Source: an uncultured Erysipelotrichaceae bacterium (GTDB lineage Bacteria; Bacillota_I; Bacilli_A; Erysipelotrichales; Erysipelotrichaceae). From it: DNA of 35,903 bases. The DNA is taken from contig CAMCSA010000021.1 in assembly GCA_945877405.1 (NCBI GenBank), forward strand, positions 1 through 35,903, in the 5' to 3' direction. Shown here piece after piece: positions 3,101 to 35,903 of this stretch. A program made the position numbers and the translations under genes. Numbering within the stretch: the stretch's first letter is position 1; the number at the start of each line of letters is the position of its first letter. Below the pieces are notes generated by a model that saw only the letters and a list, made by a program, of their open reading frames with translations, made no database searches and was not told the origin of the DNA.

Positions 3101-3721
3101 ATGTTCAAACTGTTAGATCATCCATTAATCACACATAAACTGACACACATGCGCAAAAAAGAAACAGGCACAAAGGATTTCAGAGAAAATCTTGATGAAA
3201 TCGCTGAACTGATGGCATATGAAGTATGCCGTGATCTGCCTGTTGCACCGGTGGAAATTGAAACACCTGTTGCCCCATGCACAGGATATGAACTGTCAAA
3301 GGAAGTTGTCATCGTTCCGATTCTGCGTGCTGGTATCGGACTGCTGGATGGCATCAGAAGACTTGTTCCAACGGCCAAGGTAGGCTTTATCGGTATGTAC
3401 AGAGATGAGGAAACACTGATTCCTCATGAATACTTTGCCAAGTTCCCGAAGAATCTGGAAGATGCCATTGTCATGGTTGTTGACCCAATGCTTGCAACGG
3501 GTGGCAGTGCAGTAGATGCCATTTCTGCAGTCAAGTCACGTGGAGCAAAGCAGATCAAGCTTGTCTGTCTTGTAGGTGCACCAGAGGGTGTCAAGGCTGT
3601 AACAGAAGCACATCCGGATGTTGATGTGTATCTTGCCGCACTTGATGATCACCTCAATGAGCATGGCTATATTGTTCCAGGCCTTGGTGATGCGGGTGAT
3701 AGAATCTTTGGAACAAAATAA
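3101..3721 (+). CDS. upp: Uracil phosphoribosyltransferase
   Basis: This enzyme joins uracil and PRPP to give UMP in pyrimidine salvage, in the cytosol. The 206-residue length is normal for Upp. The PRPP-binding loop is [13 protein letters not shown], and the C-terminal uracil site [13 protein letters not shown] is intact. I chose the ATG at 3101 (MFKLLDHP) rather than a longer in-frame start because CGGAGGAAAA lies just upstream and the family begins here. The next gene starts 2 nt after the stop. It heads a short transcript from the 3043 promoter and sits next to tilS-hpt, so two salvage phosphoribosyltransferases are close together. Confidence 0.97.
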
Positions 3722-34154: not shown

Positions 34155-34195
34155 AACCTTTCCTGTATTACAATAATGGCAGGAAAGGTTTTATT
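34155..34195 (+). terminator. Terminator after pfpI, holding the next gene's RBS
   Basis: AACCTTTCCTG (34155-34165) and CAGGAAAGGTT (34180-34190) form a perfect 11-bp stem, followed by TTATT. The 3' arm carries AGGAAAGG, the only plausible ribosome binding site for the next start at 34200. Confidence 0.7.
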
Positions 34196-34199
34196 CGTT

Positions 34200-34961
34200 A
34201 TGAAATATCAGAAACTTCCGGTCGTACTGGCTGGTGTATTGTATGGCTGTGCTCCGGATTCAACGGATGCACAGATTACCAGATATCTGATGGAACATAT
34301 GGAGGATGCAGATATTTCCATATCCCAGGTTGCGCAGGATTGCCATGTGGGAATGGCAACTGTATCCAGGTATGTACGCAATATCGGATTTGAGAGTTTT
34401 TCAGCATTACGGGAATGCATGAAAAAGGAAGAGGAAACGTTTGAAACGGTGGATGAAAACAATACGGCGCAGACAATTGCACAATATCATCATGATGCGC
34501 TGTCTGTATGTCTGCAGTCGATTGATCTTAAGCAGGTGGAACAGCTGTGCACACAGATTGAACGTGCAGAACATGTATTTCTGGCAGGTCTTTTGAAAGG
34601 TGAGGCTGCAGCAATGTGTCTTTGTGCAGATCTGTGCTCTCTTGGTAAACTGTGTCATACAACCGTATCTTTATCCAACCAGATGAAACAGATCATGGAA
34701 AGTACAAAAGATGATCTGATCATCGTGTTTTCAGCAACGATGAGCTACTTTGAATATTCGGATATCCGCAGAATCAGGCATCTGCTGGAAAACAGAAATA
34801 TATGGATGATTGGAAATGGTTTAAAACCTGATTTTGTAAGACATGCGATTACGTATGAATCCGGAAATGTTCCTTTATCCCATCCGGTACAGCTTGTAGC
34901 TGCGGCAGAGCTGATAGCGCAGAAATATGCGGAAAAAATAAATTTATCAAAAAAGTGTTGA
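34200..34961 (+). CDS. MurR/RpiR-type transcriptional regulator
   Basis: From ATG 34200 this is 253 residues. The N-terminal HTH reads ISISQVAQDCHVGMATVSRYVRNIGFESFSALRECM, the RpiR pattern (VSxxTVxRxxxxxGFxxFxxLR). A C-terminal SIS sugar-phosphate-binding domain follows (about residues 110-240, VFLAGLLKGEAA through DDLIIVFSATMSYFEYSD). These regulators respond to phosphosugars and often control amino-sugar use. The putative glycosidase unit is close by and could be a target. The RBS is in the arm of the preceding terminator. An in-frame ATG at 34176 exists but has no RBS. Confidence 0.85.
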   Translation: MKYQKLPVVLAGVLYGCAPDSTDAQITRYLMEHMEDADISISQVAQDCHVGMATVSRYVRNIGFESFSALRECMKKEEETFETVDENNTAQTIAQYHHDALSVCLQSIDLKQVEQLCTQIERAEHVFLAGLLKGEAAAMCLCADLCSLGKLCHTTVSLSNQMKQIMESTKDDLIIVFSATMSYFEYSDIRRIRHLLENRNIWMIGNGLKPDFVRHAITYESGNVPLSHPVQLVAAAELIAQKYAEKINLSKKC

Positions 34962-34986
34962 CACATATAATCACAGATGGTATATT
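34958..34986 (+). promoter_or_regulatory. Promoter of the hairpin-array RNA
   Basis: TTGACA (34958-34963), 17 nt, TATATT (34981-34986). Consensus -35; the strongest -35 in this part. It overlaps the 3' end of the RpiR gene. Confidence 0.8.
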
Positions 34987-34988
34987 AT

Positions 34989-35176
34989 CCGAGCTGTTGA
35001 AAAACAACTCGGATTTCTTTCAAAGAAATTCGATGAATATACAACAACAAATCGATGGGAAACCATCGAGTGTAATACAGCAAAAACAGGTCCATTGACC
35101 TGAGAAATATAACACCAACCAGGTCATATGACCTGTGAAATATACAGTATTCCAGGACATGCAGTCCTGTTTTTTT
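34989..35176 (+). ncRNA. Candidate small RNA made of regularly spaced hairpins
   Basis: From promoter to terminator there is no ORF of note, but a run of hairpins: CCGAG/CTCGG (34989-35012), ATTTCTTT/AAAGAAAT (35013-35029), CGATGG-GAAA-CCATCG (35053-35068), CAGGTC-CATT-GACCTG (35087-35102), CAGGTC-ATAT-GACCTG (35120-35135) and CAGGAC/GTCCTG (35153-35169) followed by seven T. The last four start 34, 33 and 33 nt apart, each with 6-bp arms. Linkers share AATATA or similar (GAAATATAAC, GAAATATACA, TAATACAG). A tandem array like this suggests repeated protein- or RNA-binding sites. No known family comes to mind. Confidence 0.65.
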
Positions 35177-35212: not shown

Positions 35213-35243
35213 GGATGTCAAAATGTTTTGACATCCTGTTTTC
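35213..35243 (+). terminator. Second terminator-like palindrome
   Basis: GGATGTCAAAA (35213-35223) and TTTTGACATCC (35226-35236) are perfect 11-bp arms, followed by TGTTTTCTTT. It could back up the RNA terminator. 35250-35380 shows only one further irregular hairpin (arms AAGCAC/GTGCTT, 35293-35338). Confidence 0.5.
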
Positions 35244-35387
35244 TTTAAAATCATACAAGTTTGATATTCTGTAATAATCCACATACCATATAACATACAA
35301 GCACTTCCATATGCAGATTCATTCTCGCATACAGAGGTGCTTTTAACTACCACGTCTCAATTTGAAGAATACGGAGCATAGTACAAA

Positions 35388-35544
35388 TGAACTACCCCAC
35401 CTGATACGTAGTTCAGATAGGGTATCCTTGTGATGTACTCTTTTGTACTACCACAGGGATTTTGATTTATGCAGGCATATACATGTGATTCATGTACTGT
35501 TTCCACAATGGTCGGTTCACTCGACCTCTACTGTTTTTACACAG
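35388..35544 (-). mobile_element. Right-end region of an IS200/IS605-type element (possible omega RNA segment)
   Basis: Downstream of the tnpB stop lie four hairpins: TGAACTAC/GTAGTTCA (35388-35415), a long irregular stem around GTAC/GTAC (35424-35460), ACATG/CATGT (35481-35495) and GGTCG/CGACC (35510-35526). In this element class the 3' end of tnpB and the right end encode the guide RNA used by TnpB, and transposon ends are short imperfect hairpins. The exact end of the element cannot be fixed from here. Confidence 0.55.
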
Positions 35545-35903
35545 TTACTTACTGTTCAGATCTGCAAATCTGATGATTTCCGGATTCAACAGTCTGGATA
35601 ACTGAATACTTGAAGTGTCATATCCTGCTTTCCTCAGAATATTGGCTGCACCATTCAGATCCGCATTGATAAGAGTTCCATCAGATGACCTGTATAAGCC
35701 ACGCTTTATTCTCTTACCGGAGAAGCTGTACTTCTTATTACTGCCGCTGACATGTACAGGTATCTCATCATGATCCAGAAAACTCGCTTTGCTTGTGTAT
35801 GACTCTTCTGTTCTTGTGACAGTGATACCATACTCACATGCTTTCAGCTCAATCATACTTTTCAGCATATCAAAAGGAATACTGACAAAGCTCTGGTTAT
35901 TCT
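35545..35903 (-). CDS. tnpB: TnpB (IS200/IS605 family), C-terminal part, cut by the window end
   Basis: The reading frame continues past the window end: residues before the first Met read NQSFVSIPFD, the usual TnpB context. The C-terminal part holds ESYTSKASFLDHD and the RuvC-III segment NADLNGAANILRKA with its catalytic Asp. The zinc-ribbon cysteines of many TnpB proteins are absent; FSGKRIKRGLYRSSDG stands in their place, a variant known in Firmicutes elements. TnpB is an RNA-guided nuclease. Whether this copy is intact depends on sequence outside the window. Confidence 0.85.
   Translation of the reverse strand, partial: NNQSFVSIPFDMLKSMIELKACEYGITVTRTEESYTSKASFLDHDEIPVHVSGSNKKYSFSGKRIKRGLYRSSDGTLINADLNGAANILRKAGYDTSSIQLSRLLNPEIIRFADLNSK

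Follow-up and report, generated by a model that had tools for sequence, protein, structure and literature searches.

A previously undescribed family of hairpin-array RNA genes in one genus of Erysipelotrichales, read as candidate multi-site binding RNAs

Anatomy and surroundings of the RNA gene

We analyzed a stretch of 35,903 nt (hereafter the window) that makes up contig CAMCSA010000021.1 of an uncultured Erysipelotrichaceae bacterium (assembly GCA_945877405.1). On its plus strand, a sigma-70 promoter close to consensus opens the region 34958–35176, which also comprises five hairpins and ends in an intrinsic terminator. The promoter (TTGACA-17-TATATT, 34958–34986, 11 of 12 matches) has a TG before the −10 hexamer, and the RNA is predicted to start near 34993. 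At the other end, the last hairpin (35153–35169) and the seven T that follow it form the terminator (35153–35176). Both elements were thus present as the initial annotation had described them, and the small RNA gene that it had placed between them was supported. Equivalent promoters were read ahead of the arrays of relatives, and in one genome (G035) a similar promoter lies ahead of a tRNA gene.

Between these signals, all on the plus strand, hairpin 1 (TCGGATTTCTTTCAAAGAAATTCGA, 35009–35033) is followed by linker 1 (TGAATATACAACAACAAA, 18 nt, 35034–35051) and by hairpin 2 (TCGATGG-GAAA-CCATCGA, 35052–35069), the most family-like unit of the array. Linker 2 (GTGTAATACAGCAAAAA, 35070–35086) leads to hairpin 3 (CAGGTC-CATT-GACCTG, 35087–35102), and linker 3 (AGAAATATAACACCAAC, 35103–35119) to hairpin 4 (CAGGTC-ATAT-GACCTG, 35120–35135), a near copy of hairpin 3; the likeness of these two units, counted as the fourth and fifth in the initial annotation, was confirmed. 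Linker 3 is 17 nt long, its position 1 having been taken up into the C-G pair that closes the flanking hairpin. Linker 4 (TGAAATATACAGTATTC, 35136–35152) is of a pre-terminator type that also stands ahead of the terminators of relatives. The starts proposed earlier for the last four hairpins were correct at 35087, 35120 and 35153 and off by one at 35053 (actual start 35052). A second strong terminator-like hairpin of 10 pairs (GGATGTCAAAA/TTTTGACATCC) is present at 35213–35236, 37 nt past the array terminator.

For the RNA of 184 nt, the computed folding energy is −58.3 kcal/mol (z = −7.2), and none of 200 shuffled sequences folded equally well when nested folds were considered. The array had been described as lacking an ORF, and indeed no plus-strand ORF of at least 50 aa lies inside it; a 122-aa ORF that spans it on the minus strand is probably due to chance.

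Upstream, the end of an RpiR-type regulator gene (PF01418, 34176–34961, plus strand) overlaps the −35 box. Downstream, the C-terminal end of an IS605 TnpB (PF07282, 35545–35901, minus strand) is cut by the contig end. We consider both to lie outside the system. In relatives, the array and a D-2-hydroxyacid dehydrogenase gene usually converge, the array lying immediately ahead of the 3′ end of that gene; the upstream neighbours vary. This dehydrogenase gene, rather than RpiR or the mobile element to which the RNA had been tentatively linked, is the conserved neighbour; the RpiR or IS-element link is not conserved among relatives and looks incidental. In the window genome, the dehydrogenase gene is located on contig C76 beside an IS200-type tnpA, and the window ends inside tnpB. 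Pieces of an IS605-type element were found at 35237–35901 of the window (tnpB end) and at 1–443 of locus L144 on contig C76 (tnpA end). Judging by these sequences, the window contig and C76 are probably neighbours and IS605 probably split the array from the dehydrogenase; an IS605 element between the two would explain both contig ends. Three arrays that lie away from the dehydrogenase (those of the window, G035 and G074) have an RpiR-type gene as a neighbour, arranged differently in each case; these RpiR-type genes are located at 34176–34961 of the window, L002 387–1217 and L020 454–1347. RpiR genes may simply be common in these genomes. No RpiR relatives turned up when named genomes were scanned at the protein level.

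Distribution and sequence conservation of the array family

When 60 related genomes were searched at the DNA level, arrays came to light in the window's own genus (the first matches, L006, L007 and L009, were not arrays). As the initial annotation had proposed, a covariance model search was then carried out. The model R1, built from an alignment of linker-hairpin-linker units, found arrays in 23 of the 70 genomes of the genus, and a refined model, R2, applied to 316 genomes from the order, again gave 23 with arrays; all of these belong to the window's genus, and the 246 order genomes outside it have none. R2 also matched in the window's genus only when applied to a 392-genome sample of the phylum. 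In the window, R2 matched 35034–35088 with 55.2 bits (58.1 bits with R1) and 35102–35149 with 33.9 bits; both models were seeded with window sequence, so that independence can be claimed for most matches in other genomes but not for this one. An exact pattern run over 84,980 species yielded 12 records, all labelled as Erysipelotrichaceae or Solobacterium, including the cultured strains NK3D112 and 7770_A6. The array-less genomes of the genus gave no convincing match even at a relaxed threshold.

Searches against Rfam 15 detected only tRNAs in the window and nothing near gathering scores in the array regions; the sub-threshold matches to Hrs13 and Mahella-1 were judged to be chance. We found no description of the array family in the open-licence literature. 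Viral carriage was considered and rejected, the sole match of the exact pattern among viral contigs (L053) being in phage coding sequence without a hairpin array; there, at 3200–3420, GTGAAATAC is repeated in the coding sequence without hairpins, which we took as coincidence. The array is a member of a previously undescribed RNA gene family found in one genus of Erysipelotrichales, gut and rumen bacteria, and the window copy is a divergent member. That a conserved RNA gene exists here is, in our judgement, very likely indeed.

There is essentially one array locus per genome, in fixed orientation and with a promoter and terminator in nearly every genome; most of the genomes analyzed are metagenome assemblies. 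Mapped onto a tree of rpoB domains from 57 genomes, the distribution of arrays requires four changes, most simply an old presence followed by four losses. Having been lost about four times, the RNA is not essential.

In the relatives, a sigma-70 promoter is followed by 3–12 hairpins and an intrinsic terminator. We examined 87 consecutive linker intervals in 22 arrays, 85 of which were measurable. The linker was exactly 18 nt long in 76 of these 85 and follows the consensus GYGAWAUAYAnnnnCAAA, constant at about 12 of its 18 positions. Conservation of positions 3 to 10 is partly imposed, since the search pattern fixed or restricted them. The positions that it left free (1, 2 and 11–18) are also conserved, with G1 in 69, Y2 in 74, C15 in 62, A16 in 67, A17 in 75 and A18 in 74 of the 76 linkers. 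The hairpins between the linkers range from 14 to 24 nt and are distinct in 78 of 85 cases. Their 85 loops are not conserved, and their stem base is mostly UCG/CGA, CUG/CAG or CCG/CGG (mostly YYG...CRR). Linker bases, one of the features whose conservation the initial annotation had suggested checking, are thus conserved across relatives, whereas unit number (3–12) and loops are not. Its 33–34-nt period does not describe the family either: the unit period ranges from 32 to 42 nt among relatives, and the apparent regularity is a by-product of the 18-nt linker, which is the constant part.

Compensatory changes in the arms, whose absence from relatives had been named in advance as counting against the gene, were present at all seven modelled stem pairs. 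In the full, model-fitted alignment, 7/7 pairs changed in a compensatory manner and 99.7% of cells were paired, compared to at most 45% for slid partners; in an alignment not fitted to the model, 6/7 pairs changed on both sides and 97.9% were paired, compared to at most 49%. An alternative register, in which the 3′ arm pairs with the next 5′ arm, was rejected, as it accounted for 15 of 87 intervals versus 71 of 87 with all six local pairs. Constant linkers combined with variable, self-complementary hairpins are the reverse of a CRISPR-like plan.

The 5′ end of the RNA has a pairing of its own. In 20 of 21 genomes, 4–10 nt of the leader are complementary to the first linker (at least 4 pairs), forming a helix (P1) of diverse sequence, for example GCUG/CAGC, GCGU/ACGC, UGUUG/CAACA, CACUG/CAGUG and GCGCAA/UUGCGC. 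With leaders and linkers read off by hand, cognate partners scored 13.6 compared to 10.3 ± 0.6 for shuffled partners, and none of 5000 shuffles reached the cognate mean. In the window, this leader/linker pairing test assigns P1 to UGUUG (34995–34999, plus strand) and CAACA (35042–35046, in linker 1); the alternative, seen in the minimum free energy fold, pairs GCUGU (34993–34997) with ACAGC of linker 2 (35077–35081). The leader of relatives thus pairs with the first linker, and the leader hairpin previously drawn at 34989–35012 is not the conserved fold. Likewise, the alternative pairing suggested between TCGATG (35030–35035) and CATCGA has no counterpart that we could see in relatives.

Promoter control

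A cre-like palindrome (TGNAANCGNTTNCA, at most 2 mismatches) was detected upstream of the −35 box in 18 of 22 arrays, compared to 9% of control windows of similar size. The centres of these boxes cluster at −55/−56, −64/−65, −76/−77 and −86/−87, that is, one helical turn apart. For ten lineage-collapsed centres, phasing at 10.5 bp reached R = 0.95, a value found in none of 20 000 random sets, and 10.5 was also the best period in a scan of 6–20 bp. The positions assume a transcription start 7 nt after the −10 box, and a shared error in this assumption would leave the phasing unchanged. A CcpA-like LacI-family protein is encoded in 62 of the 70 genomes of the genus; in none of them does its score reach the CcpA cut-off curated by NCBI, and the protein may therefore be something other than CcpA itself.

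In Bacillus subtilis, cre boxes located ahead of the −35 box are associated with activation, and the effect of CcpA depends on the face of the helix (PMC3463425). The location of the boxes upstream of the −35 box, at helical-turn spacing, suggests that transcription of the array is probably activated and that, as far as the sequences indicate, the array is probably switched on by sugar supply. The phased box is absent from the window copy and from G074, G026 and G078, the control of which may therefore differ. RsaI of Staphylococcus aureus is likewise a small RNA gene with cre-type control. It is reported to be down-regulated by CcpA (PMC9130240), whereas the cre position of the arrays suggests activation rather than repression, and the two RNAs have no known sequence or structure relation.

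Proposed function and alternative explanations

The multi-site binding RNA that had been suggested from the window is the most economical reading of the array. More specifically, we propose a catabolite-controlled, multi-site protein-binding RNA and put the probability of this reading at about 0.5. From the sequences we infer transcription, catabolite activation, protein binding and titration as follows. In most relatives, a CcpA-like LacI-family regulator would activate transcription when a preferred sugar is present. In the resulting RNA, the 5′ unit would be locked by P1, the helix that the leader forms with the first linker. Hairpins would follow in variable number, with arms free to change while their pairing stays, interspersed with 18-nt single-stranded linkers and their conserved stem bases, before the terminator hairpin. 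Linker and stem base would together form the putative binding site of one protein, repeated 2–11 times, so that the RNA could titrate or scaffold many copies of the bound protein.

The stem-base/linker site was not enriched outside arrays, with 26 occurrences in 12 genomes versus 19 for a backward-pattern control. Without such an excess, a decoy for a protein that has many identical mRNA sites is not supported, which would leave a dedicated partner, or a partner with looser mRNA sites, as candidates. We also compared the arrays with known RNAs of this general kind. Hfq (PF17209) and CsrA (PF02599) were each found in 0 of the 70 genomes of the genus by searches in which control genomes were positive. 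CrcZ, CrcX and CrcY, the Hfq/Crc decoys of Pseudomonas, resemble the arrays in being stand-alone RNAs with repeated A-rich sites, species variation and a place in carbon catabolite control. CrcZ, however, binds Hfq, and its sense of control is likely the opposite, since CrcZ levels are high when the carbon source is poor (PMC8395346); a decoy of this type was rejected since the genus has no Hfq. CsrB and RsmZ share many tandem hairpins, repeated sites and a varying unit number with the arrays, but their CsrA sites are GGA in loops, a motif present in 4 of 85 loops here, and a CsrA sponge was rejected on these grounds and on the absence of CsrA. Finally, the ANTAR-sponge RNAs of the Rli55/EutX type, with a hexaloop that has A at position 1 and G at position 4, were discarded because a single loop out of 85 fits A..G...

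The linkers, whose sequence is constant and which the conserved fold leaves unpaired, could also be read as repeated seeds of a base-pairing sRNA or RNA sponge, complementary to URUAUWUCRC in target RNAs, with the hairpins spacing and protecting them. The lack of Hfq need not prevent pairing by sRNAs in Gram-positive bacteria. A pure seed, however, would require neither a linker of exactly 18 nt nor the conserved stem base and CAAA block, and we consider this explanation unlikely. The conservation on both sides of the stem (CAAA before, GYGA after), together with the stem base, is also what would be expected of an architectural RNA, in which the AAA and GYGA flanks form non-canonical pairs at the stem base and no dedicated protein is needed for the units to stack or multimerise. 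The first unit, with an internal-loop form of the motif closed by P1, points in the same direction. A fixed assembly agrees less well than independent sites with the wide variation in hairpin length and unit number, and we regard the architectural reading as quite improbable.

Tandem units of ∼36 nt with a terminator and single-stranded flanks that could bind protein, as in ToxI (PMC8860590), raise the question of a type III antitoxin-like array, whose units would neutralise a ToxN-like endoribonuclease and be processed by it. ToxI units are near-identical and adjoin a toxin gene, whereas the array units differ far more and have diverse hairpins; the ToxN family occurs in just 2 of 23 array genomes, and the genes flanking the arrays, which encode unrelated enzymes, transporters and regulators, include neither ToxN nor any other toxin gene. 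We therefore judge a ToxIN-type system very improbable. ToxN-family genes in a few genomes of the genus were located at G066:C1:1110545–1111066, G061:C1:594015–594488 and G015:C537:9570–10058, and their occurrence shows no relation to that of the arrays. TIGR stem-loop arrays, which supply guide RNAs to a Nop-domain Tas protein, likewise consist of variable palindromes in tandem and finish with a terminator (PMC12045711). They carry two variable spacers of 8–12 nt per unit, as opposed to a linker constant at most positions and a vertically kept chromosomal place here, and no Nop-domain tas gene was present among the neighbours examined, making a TIGR-type array a very remote prospect. A DNA-level repeat (for example, selfish palindromes or a series of operators, whose promoter and terminator would be there by chance) is the least credible explanation, for although unit blocks do duplicate (a 113-nt block occurs three times in G014), arms of free sequence covary, which DNA-binding sites would not, and the locus is single, fixed in orientation and framed by a promoter and terminator in nearly every genome.

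The protein-binding reading can be taken one step further, to a new class of periodic ribonucleoprotein. Here, a dedicated protein would sit in 2–11 copies on linker/stem-base sites that occur essentially only in the array RNA, under catabolite control and without Hfq and CsrA; we offer this version tentatively and hold it to be rather doubtful. To our knowledge, few RNA hubs have been described in Firmicutes that lack Hfq and CsrA, and we know of hardly any work on post-transcriptional control in rumen and gut Erysipelotrichales. The arrays show that an RNA can evolve by complete turnover of its hairpins while its linkers are preserved letter for letter. With as many as 11 identical sites and a catabolite operator in helical phase, this conserved RNA would offer a direct way to isolate an RNA-binding regulator from these bacteria.
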